From a virus: DNA of 22,126 bases. Numbering within the stretch: position 1 is the first letter of the stretch; every line of letters starts with the position of its first letter. The DNA is taken from IMG/VR virus record IMGVR_UViG_3300021519_000081, positions 1-22,126 of that record. One strand, 5' to 3'. This document shows, one piece after another, positions 9 through 19,922 of this stretch. Position numbers and translations under genes: made by a program. Under the pieces are notes generated by a model. That model did no database searches and had not been told where the DNA came from. It saw only the letters and a program-made list of their open reading frames with translations.

Positions 9-1241
9 ATGAGTATTTTTCGCCGCGGTGTCGGCGATGTAACTGGTCGCTATCCGCAGTTCAACAATTATGTTGCGCCGCTTTCTCAGCTGTACGGTCA
101 AACAACTATCACTTCAAGTGCTGGCGAACGCATTGATGAGTGGACTGCTCTTGGTGTTTCCTCGGTGTTATCTGCTGTCACTTTGCTTTCCGATTCGGTT
201 GCTTCGCTTCCGCTTCGTGCTTACAAGGTTGACCCTGCCGGTGGTCGCACTGGTGTTCCTGTTCCTGAAATCTTGGCGAACCCTGACCCTGCCTCTGGAA
301 CTGATTCATTCGAGTTCATTCATACAACGATGGCTTCGCTTGTCCTTCATGGCAACGCTTACATTCACATTGACCGCGACCGTTCGGGCAAGGCGATTGG
401 CCTTGTGCCTTTGCATCCGTATCAGATGCAGGTTCTGCCTAGTGGCGACCAGACTGGCCGTTCCTATTTACATCTCGGCAATGAGATGGATGCTGAGAAC
501 ATCCTTCACATTCGCACTTTCACACCGCCACAATCGTTGGTTGGTGTGTCACCACTGATTCAATCTCGCAACCTTGTCGGGTTGTCGCTGGCAATGGATC
601 GTCACCTGTCGCAGTTCTACGCAGAAGGCGGAACGCCTAGTGGCGTTCTTTCGACTGATGGCAAGTTAACTCTTGACCAGGCTCGCACTATTCAGGGAAC
701 TTGGGAAGCAACTCACCGCCGCCACCGCCGACCAGCGGTTCTCTCTGACGGTATGAAGTTCAGTCCAATTACTACTTCGGCAGCTGATGCGCAGATGATT
801 CAATCTCGCGAACAGTTGATTCGCGACATTGCTCGAATCTATCGAATCCCTTCACACTTAATCGGCGCGACTGGCGATAACCAGACTTATCAGAATGTTG
901 AACAGGCTTCACTCAACTTCTTGATTTTCACAATCACTCCTTGGATTCGCAGACTCGAGATTGCGTTGTCTAAGATTCTCGGCCCTGACATGGATGTTGT
1001 TTTCGACTTCTCATCGTTGTTGCGTTCTGATGCTTTGACTCGTGCGCGTGTAAACACGATGAGCATTCAGGCTGGCGCAATGTCACCGAATGAGGCTCGT
1101 CAAACTTTTGGTCTTGAACCTTATGATGGCGGAGATGTATTCCATCAGGCTCTTGCTGGTACTGCTCTTGCTGGTGGCGACTTGCCTGCTCTTGGCGAGG
1201 ATGCTGATCCGAGTGCGCCGGTCATGGGAGTCCTTGACTAA
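9..1241 (+). CDS. HK97-family phage portal protein
   Basis: A 410-aa protein expected to form the dodecameric ring at one capsid vertex, through which DNA is packaged and to which the tail attaches. It has the family's order of segments. An N-terminal helix (ALGVSSVLSAVTLLSDSVAS, about residues 47-66) comes first, followed by the strand LHGNAYIHIDRD (about 113-124) and the VGVSPLIQSRNLVGLSLA helix. The core ends with a RDIARIYRIPSHLIG...QASLNFLIFTITPWIRRLE segment near 270-315. Length is typical for HK97 gp3-like portals (about 380-450 aa). The ATG at 9 follows an AGGG motif with short spacing. Its TAA overlaps the ATG of the protease fusion (TAATG at 1239-1243), giving the usual portal-protease-capsid order. 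Confident from sequence pattern and context; a terminase should lie just upstream. Confidence 0.93.
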   Translation: MSIFRRGVGDVTGRYPQFNNYVAPLSQLYGQTTITSSAGERIDEWTALGVSSVLSAVTLLSDSVASLPLRAYKVDPAGGRTGVPVPEILANPDPASGTDSFEFIHTTMASLVLHGNAYIHIDRDRSGKAIGLVPLHPYQMQVLPSGDQTGRSYLHLGNEMDAENILHIRTFTPPQSLVGVSPLIQSRNLVGLSLAMDRHLSQFYAEGGTPSGVLSTDGKLTLDQARTIQGTWEATHRRHRRPAVLSDGMKFSPITTSAADAQMIQSREQLIRDIARIYRIPSHLIGATGDNQTYQNVEQASLNFLIFTITPWIRRLEIALSKILGPDMDVVFDFSSLLRSDALTRARVNTMSIQAGAMSPNEARQTFGLEPYDGGDVFHQALAGTALAGGDLPALGEDADPSAPVMGVLD

Positions 1242-2821
1242 TGGCTGAAACTTTTCGACCACCGCAAGGGGTTCGCGATGAGGCTGCTCGCGCTTTGGCG
1301 TGGATTGCTGATGGCAAGGCTGGTGCTGGTTTCACTGACACTGGTCGCGCTCGCGCTGCGCAACTTGCTCGCGGTGATGCGGTTTCGGGTGACACGATTT
1401 TGCGAATGTATTCATTCCTTGCTCGCCATGTTGGCGATAAGCAAGGGCAGGGTTTCAATGTTGGTGATGAAGGTTATCCAAGCGCAGGTCGAGTGGCTTG
1501 GGCTGCCTGGGGTGGCGATGCAGGATTCTCTTGGTCGTCAAAGATTCGTGAACAATTATCTGCCCGAGTGGCTCAACTGGAAGGCGAAAGCATGGAATCT
1601 CGCGACATCGAGGGAACTGAAACAGTTTCGAACTTGCCCGAGGAATTGACGGAACTTCTTGGAACTGCGGTTCAGTTCTACTTCCGCGCACATGGCGCAC
1701 ACTGGAATGTCAAAGGTGCTGACTTCAGCGAGTACCACAAACTGTTTCAAAAGATTTATGAAACCGCTTATGAACTCATTGACCCGATTGCGGAGAACTT
1801 GCGCAAGATTGGCGCAGTTGCCTGTTCGACTTTGACAGAGTTCGCTTCATACGGTTATTTAGAGGATGCAAATGTTGGGCAAGACCCAATGACTTTGGCT
1901 CGCGACTTACGCGATGCCAATGATGTGTTCCTTGATCAACTAGCTGATGTGTTTGATTGTGCTTCGAACTACAACCAACAAGGCATTGCGAACTTCATCG
2001 CTGGTGCGATTGACGGTCAGCAGTTCTACAAGTGGCAGTTGACGGCTTCGCTTGGCGAGGAAGTAACTGAGCCAGCGGTTGACCCTGTCGATGACATGGG
2101 TGTGGATGTTGACGATGCTGAGGCAATGATGCCTTCAATGGAAATGAACTCGGCTGACATTGAGGCTGAAGTTGTTGAGCAAACTGAAACACCTGAACCA
2201 CGAAATGAGGACATCGACATGGAATCACGCAAGTCACGCATGGCATCAGCTGAGCGAGTAACAATGGATTGCGAAGTTCGCGCCATTGCAACCGATTCAA
2301 CTTCCCTGCGAATCGGTGGCTATGCCGCACAATTCAACAAAGAAGCCACTGGCTTATCATTCCGCGAAGTAATTGCGCCAGGCGCATTCACTCGCACATT
2401 GCAGTCAGGCGAACCGGTGTTCCTACTGGTCAACCATGACACTGACAGTTTGCCTTTGGCTTCAACACAGTCCGGCACGATGGCACTTCGCCAAGATGAA
2501 ACTGGCCTTTACATGGAAGCCGACCTTGATCCGAACAATCCTCGCGCACAGGAATTGGCTTCGGCTGTTTCTCGCGGTGATGTTTCGAAAATGTCTTTCG
2601 CTTTCACTGTCGAACCTGGTGGCGATACTCGCGAGGCTGGACTTCGGACTTTAGAGGACTTGAACTTGTTTGAAGTTTCTGTTGTCACTTGGCCTGCCTA
2701 TGATGCGACCACTGTCGGAATGCGTACCGCATCGGATGAGGATGCTGAGGCTGAGGCTTTAGAACTTCGCAAGCGGATGTTGGACTTGAAACAAAAGTTC
2801 AGCAATTCAAAAAACCGATAA
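1241..2821 (+). CDS. Three-domain fusion: N-terminal phage head domain, Dps/ferritin-like domain, HK97 prohead protease
   Basis: A continuous 526-aa reading frame with three parts. Residues about 5-105 carry a pattern I recall from other phage head proteins but whose function I do not know (GRARAAQLARGD, RMYSFLARH, GYPSAGRVAWAAWGGDAG). Residues about 132-272 match the Dps ferritin fold. The ferroxidase ligands H154, H166, D181 and E185 sit at the spacing of E. coli Dps H51, H63, D78 and E82, in FRAHGAHWNVKG and DPIAEN; Q170 replaces the fifth ligand, D67. An acidic linker (about 273-330) follows. Residues about 340-500 form an HK97/U35-type prohead protease with a likely catalytic pair: H399 in LLVNHD and S452 in KMSFAF. 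Prohead proteases are packaged in the procapsid, process scaffold and capsid termini, and self-cleave. The gene sits between portal and capsid genes, as expected. ATGs at 1592 and 2219 have Shine-Dalgarno-like sequences and could start shorter products. Confidence 0.9.
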   Translation: MAETFRPPQGVRDEAARALAWIADGKAGAGFTDTGRARAAQLARGDAVSGDTILRMYSFLARHVGDKQGQGFNVGDEGYPSAGRVAWAAWGGDAGFSWSSKIREQLSARVAQLEGESMESRDIEGTETVSNLPEELTELLGTAVQFYFRAHGAHWNVKGADFSEYHKLFQKIYETAYELIDPIAENLRKIGAVACSTLTEFASYGYLEDANVGQDPMTLARDLRDANDVFLDQLADVFDCASNYNQQGIANFIAGAIDGQQFYKWQLTASLGEEVTEPAVDPVDDMGVDVDDAEAMMPSMEMNSADIEAEVVEQTETPEPRNEDIDMESRKSRMASAERVTMDCEVRAIATDSTSLRIGGYAAQFNKEATGLSFREVIAPGAFTRTLQSGEPVFLLVNHDTDSLPLASTQSGTMALRQDETGLYMEADLDPNNPRAQELASAVSRGDVSKMSFAFTVEPGGDTREAGLRTLEDLNLFEVSVVTWPAYDATTVGMRTASDEDAEAEALELRKRMLDLKQKFSNSKNR

Positions 2822-2893
2822 CCCTAGATTTCCCCTGGCGCAACAATGCCCCGGCGGATTGCAATAACCCAACTATTCTCACAAGGAGAAACT

Positions 2894-4246
2894 ATGTCAT
2901 TACTTGACAACCTCAAAGAGGCTCGTTCAGCTGCTGCTGCCGATGCCGAGGCTTTACTTGCTGGCGAAGCAACCGCAGAATCACTTGATGCTGTTGAAGC
3001 GCGCCAGTCAGAGATTGCCGACCTAGATAGCAAGATTGAAAGCGCAACCGCGCTTGAGGCTCGCACTGCTTCCATCAAAGAGGCTCGCGCTGCTGAAGGC
3101 ATCAAGGCTTTCGGTTCTGCAGTAGTTACTCGCGAAGCCATGACCTACGACAAGGGCAGCGACAACTCATTCGTTCGTGACATGATTGGCGCAACCCTTC
3201 GCAACGACTCACAGTCATGGGAACGCTTAAACCGCCATCAGTCTGAAATGGCTGTTGAACTTCGCGACATCAACCGCACCGACACAAGCGGTGGCGACAT
3301 GGTTCCGCCTTTGTACCTAATCAACGAATACGCAGAGTTTGCTCGCGCTGCTCGCGTAACTGCTGACCTTTGCACAAAGATGGCACTACCTGCTGGAACT
3401 GATTCAATCAACATTCCTGCAATCACCACTGGTTCACGCACTGGCTTCCAGGCTGCTGACAACTCAAGCACCTACGCACCAACAAGTCCTCGTGACCTTG
3501 TTACTGCAACCAACACTGGTCGCGTTGAAACAATCTCAGGTTTTGAGAATGTAAGCATTCAGCTTGTTGAGCAGTCACCAATCGCTGGCGGATTAGACAA
3601 ACTAATCTTTGGCGACCTAATGGCTGACTACGCACTTCAGTTGAACTCTGCTGTTGCTGGCAACGGTGCTGGAACTGCTGGAACACTAAAGGGCTTCGTC
3701 ACACTTGGCACCGATAGCACCAACGGCATTCCAACAACTTGGACTGAAGCAACACCGACCGCAACTGCTGGCCTTGCTGCAATCACAAAGGCAATCTCGC
3801 AGGTTGTAACAAACCGTTACAAGGCAGTCGAAGCCATCGTCATGGCACCGGCTACTTGGTACTGGTTAGCATCACAGGTTGACGGCTCAAGCCGCCCACT
3901 GATCGTGCCTACCGGCAACGGCCCATTCAACGCTGCTGGTGTAACAACCGCAGCAGGCGCACCTGCTGGCCTTGTTGGAAGTATCTACGGCGTTCCTGTG
4001 TATGTTGACGCAACACTAAAGAACACCGCTGGCGCATCAACGAACCAGTCACCAATCTTGGTTGGCAAGTTCTCTGATTCTTACTTGTTCGAATCAGGCG
4101 TTAAGACACGCGTACTAAATGATGTTTTATCTTCGAACTTGACCGTCCGTTTTCAGGTATATGGCTATGCAGCACTAATTCACCGCTACGCGAAGTCAGT
4201 TTCTGGCATCAGTGGCACTGGTACAGTAACGCCTTCAGGCTACTAA
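2894..4246 (+). CDS. Major capsid protein, HK97 fold
   Basis: A 450-aa protein expected to be the main shell subunit. I chose the ATG at 2894 because AAGGAG at 2883-2888 precedes it by five bases; an in-frame ATG at 2846 would add residues with no such signal. Residues about 1-72 are helical, charged and Ala/Glu-rich, like the scaffolding delta domain that the prohead protease removes. The rest has HK97-family features: DTSGGDMVPPLYLINEY, the INIPAITTGSRTGFQAAD strand region, an E-loop-like stretch, KAVEAIVMAPATWYWLA, and a C-terminal end LTVRFQVYGYAALIHRYAKS. It directly follows the protease gene and is followed by a hairpin at 4262-4289. The strong ribosome-binding site fits high expression. 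Confidence 0.93.
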   Translation: MSLLDNLKEARSAAAADAEALLAGEATAESLDAVEARQSEIADLDSKIESATALEARTASIKEARAAEGIKAFGSAVVTREAMTYDKGSDNSFVRDMIGATLRNDSQSWERLNRHQSEMAVELRDINRTDTSGGDMVPPLYLINEYAEFARAARVTADLCTKMALPAGTDSINIPAITTGSRTGFQAADNSSTYAPTSPRDLVTATNTGRVETISGFENVSIQLVEQSPIAGGLDKLIFGDLMADYALQLNSAVAGNGAGTAGTLKGFVTLGTDSTNGIPTTWTEATPTATAGLAAITKAISQVVTNRYKAVEAIVMAPATWYWLASQVDGSSRPLIVPTGNGPFNAAGVTTAAGAPAGLVGSIYGVPVYVDATLKNTAGASTNQSPILVGKFSDSYLFESGVKTRVLNDVLSSNLTVRFQVYGYAALIHRYAKSVSGISGTGTVTPSGY

Positions 4247-4326: not shown

Positions 4327-4473
4327 ATGGCAGGGATGAAAACTATTTTGCTTGAGGCAGTTGTCGCTTTGCAGAATGTGATTGATAACAACGGCACTAT
4401 TGAACAGGTGCTGGAATTACTTGATCACACTCAAGATTTCAAACTCGATAACTTCGAGCGTGAAACTCGATGA
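4327..4473 (+). CDS. Small hypothetical protein, 48 aa
   Basis: A short open frame from ATG 4327 to TGA 4473, preceded by AGGGG at 4317-4321 with five bases of spacing. It encodes a mildly acidic, probably helical peptide: MAGMKTILLEAVVALQNVID, then NNGTIEQVLELLDHTQDFKL and a charged end. The stop overlaps the ATG of the glycosyltransferase gene (ATGA at 4470-4473), which suggests translational coupling. I do not recognise a family. Its place between capsid and glycosyltransferase suggests a role in virion assembly or a leader-like coupling role, but the sequence does not show a function. Confidence 0.6.
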   Translation: MAGMKTILLEAVVALQNVIDNNGTIEQVLELLDHTQDFKLDNFERETR

Positions 4474-5162
4474 GGTCACGCGAAACTGTTTGCATCGCAA
4501 TTCCACATGATGGCAACATCGATGCTCAAATGACTTTGGATTTGGTTTCGCTTATGCGTGACCGCCGAACAAGGATTGACTCACTTCAGTTGGCGCATGG
4601 CACTGGCCTTCTTGCTCGGACTCGCAATCTGATTGTGAAAAACTTTCTTGATGATTCGAATGCCGACTGGCTGTTGATGGTTGATTCTGACCAGTCGTTG
4701 CCAATCTCGGCTTTTGATTTGTTGATTGAGTCTGCGCATAAGGATGACCGACCTGTTGTTGCTGGCTTGGTGTTCGCCGCTTTCTATGACAATCAAGTCT
4801 TGCGACCTGTGCCGGCAATCTACAACATCTCAGCTGATGGCGCGATGCTTCCGATTGACGACTATTCAAAGAACTCACTCGTTCAAATTGATGGTTCTGG
4901 CACTGGTTGCATTCTGATTCACCGCGATGTTCTTGTGGCTATTCGCGCGAAGGCGACACCGAACCAGGGAACTGACTGGTGTTGGTTCTTTGATGGCGCG
5001 ATTGAAGGTCGCTGGTTCAGCGAGGACTTGTTGTTCTGTCGCAAGATTCTCGCACTTGGCTTTCCTATCTTTTGTCACACTGGCGCAATTCTCGGCCATC
5101 ACAAACAGTTCTGGCTTGATGAGCGCCAGCACGATCAGTGGAAATCTGAAAACAAAATCTAA
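4470..5162 (+). CDS. GT-A type glycosyltransferase (GT2-like)
   Basis: A 230-aa protein resembling small phage and bacterial GT2-type glycosyltransferases, which move a sugar from a nucleotide donor to an acceptor. An N-terminal strand VCIAIP is followed by GLLARTRNLIVKNFLDDS and WLLMVDSDQSLP. D72-S73-D74 is a DxD motif that would hold the metal and nucleotide-sugar. GTGCILIHRDVL follows, then S184-E185-D186 in WFSEDLLFCRK, where an acidic residue would be the catalytic base, and finally GHHK (209-212). It starts inside the stop of the 48-aa gene and is followed by a strong hairpin. Lying between the capsid gene and a Thr/Ser-rich fibre gene, it could glycosylate a virion protein; that target is inference. 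The enzyme class is fairly secure, donor and acceptor are not. Confidence 0.82.
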   Translation: MRSRETVCIAIPHDGNIDAQMTLDLVSLMRDRRTRIDSLQLAHGTGLLARTRNLIVKNFLDDSNADWLLMVDSDQSLPISAFDLLIESAHKDDRPVVAGLVFAAFYDNQVLRPVPAIYNISADGAMLPIDDYSKNSLVQIDGSGTGCILIHRDVLVAIRAKATPNQGTDWCWFFDGAIEGRWFSEDLLFCRKILALGFPIFCHTGAILGHHKQFWLDERQHDQWKSENKI

Positions 5163-5209: not shown

Positions 5210-5222
5210 TGAAGGAGTGTTG

Positions 5223-7109
5223 ATGTCAACAAGTTATCCTGGCGCATTGGATTCATTCGTGAACCCAACTGCAACTGACACGCTTGACAGCGCAACTGTT
5301 CCTCACGCTGCCCAGCATGACAACATCAATGATGCAATGTCGGCTGTTCAGGTCACTCTTGGTGTGAATCCTCAAGGCGGTTCGGCAACTGTTGTTGCTC
5401 GGTTGACTGCTCTTGATTCAACTGTTGCTGGCAAGGCTTCACTTTCAGCTGCGAACACTTTCACGACTGGCGCACAAACAATCCGCACTGGTGCTGATGC
5501 GACCAAGGCTTTGATTTTGCAACGCAACAGCGCAACACAGTCGGCAAACATTGTCAGTGTTGTTCAGTCTGATGGCACAACCGAACTTGCTCGCGTTCGA
5601 CCTATCGGCCAAATCGGTGTTGGCACTCTAATCACTAACACTGCTCTTGGTATCAACACCGACCTTGTTGGCGATAACCGCGCCATTGTTATCAAGGCAG
5701 GTCAGACAACGCCGACCAACAATGCGATTGAACTTTTGCCTTTGGCTAACAATACGCCTGTGATGAAGGTTGATTTTGCTGGAAACATTACTGCGCCGAC
5801 TTTTGTCGGAGCATTGACCGGCAACGCAACAACTGCCACCTCAGCGACAACGGCAGGTTCAGCAACTACGGCTGGCAACTTGTCTGGCACTCAGACTGCA
5901 AAGTTTGTTTATGCTGCGCCAAATAGTGCTGATGGAACTGCCTCGTTTAGGGCTTTGCTTGCAACCGACATTCCAACCTTGAATCAGGATACGACTGGCA
6001 ACGCTGGAACTGTCACAAATGGTGTTTATACAACCGACACTGGCACTGTGACTTCAACAATGATTCTTGACGGAACTATTCTCAATGCTGACATCAATGC
6101 TTCAGCTGCTATTGCGGACACGAAACTTGCGCAGATCACAACGGCAAATAAAGTTTCTGGCACTGCTATCACTAGCGGAAACATAAGCACCAGCGGAAGC
6201 ATTACAACTTCAAGCAACATCAGCACCACTGGTGGCGGTTCGATTACTGCGGCAGGAAATGTGACTGCTGCTGGTTTCACTGCAACTGGCACATCGGCAG
6301 TTTTGTTGGGAAGTTCTGGCTCAACTGGTGGCAACCTTGTGTTCGCTACTACTGGCGGAACGCAGTCTTTGATTGCCGGCACTGGTGCAACTGGCAACCA
6401 GACTTTACCTGCTACGGCTGGCACATTGTTGAACAATGCAACAACTTCAATTCCGAATGTGACCACTGCCAACGGCTTGACCAGCGCATCGAGTTTGGCA
6501 ACGGTTGGCACGATTACTTCAGGCACTTGGAACGCAACTGCGATTGACCCTGCCAAAGGTGGCACTGGCAACACTTATGGTTCAATTCTGGTTGGCCATA
6601 GCCAGTTGAATGCTGATGTTACAAAGAACGCAAATGACACAACGCCTGAATCAGTTTTCAGAACAGGCACAGCGTTCTCAAGTATTCAATACTTCAATGT
6701 CGATGCAAACACGACTTACTTTTTTGAAGGAACAATTCGCCTTCTTAAAACAACTACCTCTTCGACAGTGAACAACAGCATGATTTATTATGCCACTGGT
6801 GGCACAACACCATTGACTGAACAAAGTGCATTCATAAGCACCAGCAACTTTTCAACAACTGGAACTCTTGGCTTTGGTTCAGCGACAGCAACTGCAACTG
6901 CCGCGACTTCTACAGCCTCAACTGGAACTTCAGTTGTGACTGTTTTCAGGGGTCAGATCACAACCCATGCTTCAACTGCTGGCAGGTTCAACATTGCTTC
7001 TTGGCTGACAAGCGCAGGCGCAAGCGCACCGCAGTTCCTTGCTGGTTCTTACATCAACCTTTACAAGGTTGGAACTGGTTCAGTTCAGACTTTCGGAAAC
7101 TGGTCTTAA
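5223..7109 (+). CDS. Thr/Ser/Gly/Ala-rich fibre-like virion protein
   Basis: A 628-aa protein; start at ATG 5223 because AAGGAG at 5212-5217 precedes it by five bases. The N-terminus (STSYPGALDSFVNP, HAAQHDNINDAMSAVQVTLG) looks like the attachment segment seen in phage fibre or appendage proteins. The middle, about residues 60-460, is low-complexity and strand-rich, with short degenerate repeats of Thr, Ser, Ala and Gly such as TATSATTAGSATTAG and NISTSGSITTSSNISTTGGG, typical of trimeric fibre shafts. The final 150 or so residues (from about FRTGTAFSSIQYFNV) are more aromatic and look like a globular beta-rich tip. The position between capsid and connector genes suggests a head fibre or capsid-attached appendage, but a tail fibre is possible. 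The many Thr and Ser are possible acceptors for the adjacent glycosyltransferase. Confidence 0.75.
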   Translation: MSTSYPGALDSFVNPTATDTLDSATVPHAAQHDNINDAMSAVQVTLGVNPQGGSATVVARLTALDSTVAGKASLSAANTFTTGAQTIRTGADATKALILQRNSATQSANIVSVVQSDGTTELARVRPIGQIGVGTLITNTALGINTDLVGDNRAIVIKAGQTTPTNNAIELLPLANNTPVMKVDFAGNITAPTFVGALTGNATTATSATTAGSATTAGNLSGTQTAKFVYAAPNSADGTASFRALLATDIPTLNQDTTGNAGTVTNGVYTTDTGTVTSTMILDGTILNADINASAAIADTKLAQITTANKVSGTAITSGNISTSGSITTSSNISTTGGGSITAAGNVTAAGFTATGTSAVLLGSSGSTGGNLVFATTGGTQSLIAGTGATGNQTLPATAGTLLNNATTSIPNVTTANGLTSASSLATVGTITSGTWNATAIDPAKGGTGNTYGSILVGHSQLNADVTKNANDTTPESVFRTGTAFSSIQYFNVDANTTYFFEGTIRLLKTTTSSTVNNSMIYYATGGTTPLTEQSAFISTSNFSTTGTLGFGSATATATAATSTASTGTSVVTVFRGQITTHASTAGRFNIASWLTSAGASAPQFLAGSYINLYKVGTGSVQTFGNWS

Positions 7110-19114: not shown

Positions 19115-19446
19115 GCAAGCAACGCGCCAAAGGAACTGCTGCGGAAACTGCGGTCGTCAACTATCTCAAAGCCAACGGCTTTCCTGATGCTGACCGTTCG
19201 CCACTGCGCGGAGTCCTAGACAAAGGCGATGTCACAGGCATTCGCAATGTTGTCATCGAGATCAAGAACCAACGAACCTACGCAATTCCGGCATGGCTTC
19301 GCGAACTTGAAGTTGAGGCAACGAACGCTCAGGCAAGCAAGGCGTTCCTAGTGGTCAAGCCAAACGGCGTTGGCGCAACCAGAGTCGGCGACTGGTGGGC
19401 AGTGATGCCTCTCTGGCGCATGGCAGAACTGTTGAGGGGTCGATGA
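19111..19446 (+). CDS. PD-(D/E)XK nuclease, Holliday-junction-resolvase-like
   Basis: A 111-aa protein with a GTG start overlapping the upstream stop. It has the fold's signature: E12 in KGTAAETAVVNYLK, D40 in LDKGDVTG, and E50-x-K52 in NVVIEIKNQ, where D40, E50 and K52 are the catalytic residues. The following WLRELEVEATNAQASKAFLV, VVKP is the usual helix-strand end. Length and motif order match small archaeal/phage Holliday junction resolvases of the Hjc-like group. It would resolve branched DNA before packaging or aid recombination. The resolvase role is inferred; the nuclease fold is well supported. Confidence 0.82.
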   Translation: MSKQRAKGTAAETAVVNYLKANGFPDADRSPLRGVLDKGDVTGIRNVVIEIKNQRTYAIPAWLRELEVEATNAQASKAFLVVKPNGVGATRVGDWWAVMPLWRMAELLRGR

Positions 19447-19922
19447 GCAGTGACCCATTCACACAGTTCAGCCTCGACATCCCAAACTTCCCCGAAGCCA
19501 AATGCGCCAGCAGTGACTTTGACCCTGACACCTGGTTTCCCGAAGCAGTTAGAAACCAAGAAGTTCGAGCAGAGGACACCTTCATTGCCCGAACTCTCTG
19601 TGGCAGTTGTGTCCATAAAGTGGACTGTCTGCAATTCGCCTTGGACAACGGCATTGGTGACGGAATCTGGGGCGGTTTACTGCCCGAGGAACGCCGACAA
19701 GCTGACCAGTCGAAGTCGCAAGTTCGCCAAGCGAAGTTGGATGCGGTTCGTGCGCTACTGGCGCGAGGAATGAACCTCGACCGCGCTTGCGCTGATGTCG
19801 GACTATCAACCAAGACATTCGACCGGTATAGACACTTTGAAAAACATGGTTGGCCGCCACAAGTTTCAAACCAAAGAACAAACAGAGCAAACAAACAAAA
19901 AGAAAAGGACAAAACCAAATGA
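19443..19922 (+). CDS. WhiB-like Fe-S transcriptional regulator with C-terminal extension
   Basis: A 159-aa protein; ATG 19443 overlaps the upstream stop (ATGA). It has the WhiB set: C21 in AKCASSDFDPDTWFP, C53-x2-C56-x5-C62 in TLCGSCVHKVDC, and the GIWGG turn (74-78), followed by LLPEERR. The four cysteines would hold a [4Fe-4S] cluster and the region after the turn would bind DNA or sigma factor. The family is found only in Actinobacteria and their phages, so it identifies the host phylum. Beyond the usual end (about residue 90) lies an extra 70 residues. These include a possible HTH (LARGMNLDRACADVGLSTKT, FDRYRHFEKHGWPP) and a Lys-rich tail. It may alter host transcription. Confidence 0.92.
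   Translation: MSSDPFTQFSLDIPNFPEAKCASSDFDPDTWFPEAVRNQEVRAEDTFIARTLCGSCVHKVDCLQFALDNGIGDGIWGGLLPEERRQADQSKSQVRQAKLDAVRALLARGMNLDRACADVGLSTKTFDRYRHFEKHGWPPQVSNQRTNRANKQKEKDKTK

Follow-up and report, generated by a model that had tools for sequence, protein, structure and literature searches.

The window analysed here is a 22-kb virus fragment, positions 1-22,126 of IMG/VR record IMGVR_UViG_3300021519_000081, in which the head genes run in the order portal, fusion protease and HK97-fold major capsid protein (MCP). The portal protein gene (9-1241, + strand; PF04860, E = 6e-79) is followed by a single open frame at 1241-2821 (+), which codes for 526 aa arranged as three modules and is unbroken, as an earlier note on this DNA had read it. 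The HK97-type MCP gene (2846-4246, +) matches PF05065 over residues 167-438 (E = 1e-15), and the ~165 residues N-terminal to this capsid domain are room enough for a scaffold domain. Directly after the capsid gene lies a glycosyltransferase-like gene (4470-5162; phrog_34859, E = 3e-29); glycosyltransferases likewise occupy the place after the capsid gene in Pontimonas phage phiPsal1. Farther on in the structural region, 5217-7109 encodes a 630-aa Thr/Ala/Ser-rich protein with no PHROGs match at E <= 0.01.

The three modules of the fusion gene are interspersed with translation start signals. The full-length product would begin at ATG 1241, which overlaps the portal stop codon and is preceded by GGGAG at 1226-1230 (together 1226-1243, +); an SD 4-mer stands before this start in 64 of 75 relatives. 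The N-module (residues 6-101; 1256-1543, +) matches phrog_2859 (E = 7e-35). Because the same module is also found at the C-terminal end of portal proteins in other phages (for example L065:3645-5951 and L076:3447-5645), it may be a general head-associated module. A second start, GGAAGG at 1579-1584 with ATG 1592 (M118; 1579-1594, +), precedes a Dps/ferritin-like domain (residues 135-272; 1643-2056, +; Pfam Ferritin, PF00210, E = 4.7e-11), the one ferritin match in the record; residues 129-272 match phrog_3636, Dps-like DNA binding protein (E = 4e-20). An acidic linker of about residues 276-326 (2066-2218, +), with pLDDT below 50 and dN/dS of 0.27-0.46, then leads to a third start, GAGGA at 2207-2211 with ATG 2219 (M327; 2207-2221, +). 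Beyond it lies the prohead protease domain (residues 344-498; 2270-2734, +; Peptidase_S78, PF04586, E = 2.6e-38), which also matches phrog_80, head maturation protease (E = 3e-48). H399, S452 and E478 are invariant in the alignment of relatives, bearing out the HK97 protease motifs claimed for the C-terminal end. In a full-length AF2 model based on 18 sequences, the N-module and Dps domain are confident and the protease part has pLDDT of about 25-48, so we make no claim on how the domains pack.

Fold and ferroxidase site of the middle domain

The best PDB sequence matches to the middle part are all Dps-type proteins (3iq1, E = 4e-12). Structure prediction, which the earlier note had proposed as a check on this region, returned the Dps fold: an AF2 model of residues 125-285 reaches pLDDT 89, and its helices (8-32, 38-65, 74-80, 92-119 and 123-146 of the model) follow the A, B, BC, C, D order of Dps. 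Foldseek and VIA-align comparisons placed Dps proteins on top, with TM-scores of 0.84/0.93 to B. brevis Dps 1n1q and a best Z of 22.4. A Z of about 22 is far above that of unrelated helical bundles, and by this model the middle domain is a true Dps fold.

The four ferroxidase ligands claimed at E. coli Dps spacing are spaced as described. H154, H166 (+12), D181 (+27) and E185 (+31) correspond to H51, H63, D78 and E82 in E. coli Dps numbering, and all four are invariant in 96 of 96 distinct fused sequences, which differ widely outside them, and in 31 of 31 distinct standalone viral homologues. Fold (Z 22) and ligand invariance together rule out a chance ligand match in some helical bundle. The fifth-ligand position, equivalent to D67 and occupied here by Q170 (+16), varies among the fused sequences (Q in 48, L in 27, N in 12). 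It is not strictly defining for Dps, since the solved Dps-family protein CAIP (H. cinaedi, 5lbh) also aligns a Q there. Q246, Q247, G248 and N251 are nearly invariant among fused sequences and belong to the segment that lines the threefold pore in Dps; Q246 and N251 align with two acidic (Asp) residues near the pore of B. subtilis MrgA (2chp).

Charge sets limits on what the domain may do. Its net charge is -13 (family median -14) and that of the segment before it -5; a Lys-rich basic tail, looked for on the Dps domain, is absent, and the preceding residues are acidic. DNA binding is therefore not expected, and an association of this domain with DNA appears unlikely from its composition. The suggestion that Dps sits with the genome thus finds no support, and we set aside a genome-binding protein as a candidate role. 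Not all Dps proteins bind DNA, so the missing tail does not remove the domain from Dps at large. Compared with the mini-ferritins (PF00210) named above, the window's domain shares helix order and the four ligands but sits between two other domains, is acidic without a basic DNA-binding tail, belongs to a family with mostly Q, L or N at the fifth-ligand position, and has Gln and Asn in place of the pore-region Asp residues of MrgA.

Conservation of the fusion and exchange of its middle module

A first IMG/VR search gave 78 loci, about 60 of which share this fusion in whole or in part. Across all scans, the Dps of close relatives is always in frame with the protease, or the contig ends first; unfused Dps was not found among close relatives in these scans. 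Standalone Dps homologues, likewise with all four ligands, also occur in viruses and are more distant from the window's Dps. Relatives show the order N-module-Dps-S78, or carry a TUDOR-like module (PF11160), a ~130-aa module or both between Dps and protease, and some fused relatives lack the N-module. Each of eight longer records (31-64 kb) has exactly one ferritin match, within the fusion. Among 50,697 isolate phage records, none had a place covering most of the fusion.

The earlier note had taken absence of the fusion from relatives as the mark of a chimera; instead, the same module order and junctions recur in dozens of independent contigs from many samples. This recurrence, with the ligands invariant in 96/96 fused relatives, led us to reject chimeric assembly. 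Dps has a dN/dS ratio of 0.083 and the protease one of 0.086, while the linker reaches 0.27 (0.46 against the window), and Dps is under purifying selection as strong as that on the protease. The fusion itself is thus confirmed as real: Dps and a prohead protease form one covalent chain, which is kept in relatives across a large group of uncultured phages.

A WhiB-family gene at 19395-19922, together with similarity to the Pontimonas phage protease, suggests that this phage group probably has an actinobacterial host. The C-terminus of the WhiB-family protein contains a helix-turn-helix-like stretch (HTH_29, below cut-off). The single close match in a bacterial genome is L204 (RFVZ01000193.1), a contig 4.7 kb long that was binned in a Betaproteobacteria MAG. 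It bears the same N-module-Dps-S78 gene with 91% identity in Dps; we took it to be a probably mis-binned phage contig and did not adopt Betaproteobacteria as host.

Scanning with the protease only uncovered relatives with a different helical segment at the Dps position (AADASIDAAQ...QAYYLICAADLALDPVIDALGL). This alternative module follows the pattern AADAxxDAAQxLL...QAYYLICAADxALxxVIxALGL (for example L355:2157-4097, L345:2592-4100 and L315:2673-4094). Of the 107 rows of a protease tree, Dps is present in 92 and the alternative, unrelated helical module in 14, and the distribution needs 8-9 exchanges between the two, at least 4 of them forced by supported branches. On this tree, Dps is a swappable cassette in a slot that has been exchanged repeatedly, and the ferroxidase is not obligatory for the gene, since 14 relatives carry another helical module in its place.

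The protease of phiPsal1, an isolate actinophage (AUV61415.1; L278:3809-5263), is 47% identical to that of the window over 135 aa, the highest among the matches listed. At 484 aa, it has an N-terminal extension with an N-module, like the window gene, but lacks Dps; a Cys-rich HiPIP-like segment is found instead (a weak Pfam match to PF01355 that falls below cut-off, E = 0.0013). It may be another case of a head protease bearing a metal or redox module. In an actinophage-like contig with WhiB (L228:3523-5828), dps stands as a gene of its own; its neighbours are Hsp20, a HiPIP-like CxxC gene, a gene combining N-module and TUDOR, and a small gene that resembles the first part of the phiPsal1 protease. 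Modules fused on prohead proteases elsewhere thus stand unfused there.

Nested start signals within one frame

The two internal starts of the window have the spacing GGAAGG-7-ATG before Dps and GAGGA-7-ATG before the protease. By inspection, a start codon occupies the matching pre-protease place in 83 of 83 non-redundant ORFs, mostly as ATG, with TTG in 7 and GTG in 1; where the residue is Leu the codon is always TTG, and where it is Val, GTG, so that only start-capable codons are used. The SD Glu codon before the protease is GAG in 63 of 66 cases, against 33% overall in these genes, and the two SD Glu columns rank 1-2 of 30 for GAG (100% and 98.6%, against a median of 24%). We also compared the sites with 300 trials of synonymous-codon resampling, and the observed counts exceeded every trial at both. 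An SD with a start precedes the protease in 91 of 105 ORFs (resampled 38.1 +/- 4.5, maximum 57) and an SD with ATG precedes Dps in 87 of 88 relatives (68.4 +/- 2.9, maximum 74), though these ORFs are related by descent and the counts are not independent trials; for this reason, the GAG column comparison and the changing residues weigh more. The SD before Dps is kept while the residues that it encodes change by lineage (LEGESM, EEGDM, EENDM, IIGETM, SKEDDM). An SD-type motif accompanies 10.4% of other internal ATGs. Most of 34 further ORFs, some with the alternative module, have the same two internal sites, and in some family members the SD before the protease is weak or absent. The two extra modules that lie between Dps and protease in some relatives were checked for starts of their own as well, and these are not conserved (SD in 12/35 and 7/38).

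Since the frame keeps a conserved ribosome-binding site and start codon at two more places, the predicted products are the full-length protein of 526 aa from M1, a Dps-protease of 409 aa from M118 and a protease-only form of 200 aa from M327. The phage probably makes its protease both with and without the iron module, to judge from these signals, which, like the module exchange, make it less likely that Dps is present on all copies of the protease. The earlier interpretation is supported in part: it stands as to the Dps fold, its conserved site and the fusion, is plausible as to capsid targeting and autocleavage, and finds no support as to genome association; internal starts and module exchange had been overlooked.

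Relative to HK97 gp4-type prohead proteases (PF04586; phrog_80), the window gene has the same catalytic domain, invariant H/S/E residues and location between portal and MCP, but adds an N-terminal extension of about 330 residues (N-module and Dps) and two internal starts. In the C/Nu3 arrangement of phage lambda, the genes of the gpC protease and the Nu3 scaffold are likewise nested: they share one frame, with a second start inside the protease region. The inner product of lambda is the scaffold (for the roles of gpC and Nu3, see PMC3224144), whereas in the window gene the protease would be made as the inner product, with Dps in the outer part.

Proposed packaging of a ferroxidase and its alternatives

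The reading that we favour, tentatively and at slightly less than even confidence, is that Dps travels into the procapsid as cargo of the protease, in a dose set by the nested starts, and that a cut in the linker leaves it in the head. We infer each of the steps involved: start use, packaging, cleavage, caging and iron chemistry. The locus would be a modular protease gene whose N-terminal extension holds an exchangeable accessory module, here a Dps-type ferroxidase. Its three nested ribosome-binding sites in one frame would yield N-module-Dps-protease, Dps-protease and protease alone; the protease domain would carry Dps into the procapsid in limited copy number, and unfused protease would do most of the maturation. 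The flexible acidic linker would be cut during maturation, and Dps, possibly as a cage, would stay in the head. It could then oxidise and store Fe(II) or use up peroxide, either within the virion or within a cell just infected. Measuring about 9 nm, a Dps cage should not pass the head pores, so that, in contrast to small fragments, it could stay inside once the linker is cleaved.

Packing into the procapsid, with cutting of both MCP and the protease itself, is known for the HK97/D3 prohead protease, of which HK97 Prohead 1 holds ~60 copies and D3 about 90 (PMC12749128). Some 60 fused copies would make at most five 12-mers, and fewer if most protease comes from M327. Purified D3 Prohead 2 shows a cleaved MCP band only (PMC12749128), so the protease and its fused parts may leave the head; nor need the fusion be the packaged form, since the internal start supplies unfused protease. 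Two further points count against this reading: most fused members have Q, L or N rather than D at the fifth-ligand position, and in 14 relatives the slot holds the other helical module. Protein cargo likewise enters the heads of T4, whose internal proteins have a capsid targeting sequence, and of P1, with DarA and DarB (PMC9024508). Such cargo bears a short targeting sequence, whereas here the protease would be the carrier and a ferroxidase the cargo. In preparations of Vi01-like phage, a predicted ferritin (Phyre2) was detected by mass spectrometry, and no dependence on iron uptake was seen in the host tested (PMC10892097).

The main rival, which we consider unlikely, places Dps in the cytoplasm of the infected cell, where, like standalone phage Dps, the full-length and Dps-protease forms would bind iron and lessen peroxide stress while only the internal-start protease enters the procapsid. 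The conserved start before the protease would separate these two jobs, freeing the protease from Dps. Standalone viral homologues carry the same four ligands, and a role against host-cell oxidative stress was proposed by the authors who described Dps in gut phages (PMC8008677). Such standalone genes, found in Bacteroides gut phages ('Gratiaviridae'), in Lactobacillus phages (PMC6669764) and in phrog_3636, share fold family and ligands with the window's Dps but, unlike it, are not attached to a head protein. Yet the fusion gene never yields Dps without the protease domain unless the product is cleaved, close relatives furnish no unfused Dps, and a cytoplasmic role leaves the repeated retention of the fusion unexplained. 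Distinctly unlikely, in our view, is that Dps serves for oligomerisation or assembly, its dodecamer clustering proteases or forming an inner core of the procapsid with iron chemistry incidental. The unrelated helical module that fills the slot in 14 relatives, with its 8-9 exchanges (at least 4 forced), would suit such a role, as would the near-invariance of Q246, Q247, G248 and N251 in the pore-lining segment. Pure scaffolding, however, would not demand four ligands invariant in 96/96 fused sequences, and the ~165 residues before the MCP capsid domain suffice for a scaffold of its own.

We regard it as very unlikely that the internal SD/start pairs are relics of formerly separate genes, or SD-like pause sites, and that only the full-length protein is made. 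The modules do occur as separate neighbouring genes in L228 (dps, HiPIP-like, N-module with TUDOR), and the SD before the protease is weak or absent in some members. Relics would nonetheless decay over this divergence, whereas the SD persists through residue change (LEGESM, EEGDM, EENDM, IIGETM) and the codons switch among ATG, TTG and GTG only. To a chimeric assembly or a chance resemblance to Dps we give next to no probability; both are refuted by the same junctions in dozens of contigs and the fold match at Z 22.

Broader than the packaging of Dps by its protease is the idea that the head slot is a general cargo port for Dps, alternative helical, TUDOR-like and HiPIP-like modules, through which virions of a widespread group would pass iron or redox proteins on to the host infected next, in doses set by nested starts; we hold this to be possible, if somewhat unlikely. 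The full-text literature searched yielded no description of a prohead protease fused to Dps, and the two terms co-occur there as whole words only in a Xenorhabdus OxyR paper. The most secure of the new facts are that the fusion is conserved, that all four ligands of its ferroxidase site are in place, that the middle module has been exchanged repeatedly and that the nested start signals are kept. Should Dps enter the head, the fusion would bring an iron-oxidising protein straight into the virion, and a single operon would be enough to test the question of iron in phage particles. Should it stay in the cell instead, the nested starts and exchangeable slot still show that, in a large group of phages, a capsid protease gene can serve as an anchor point for accessory domains.
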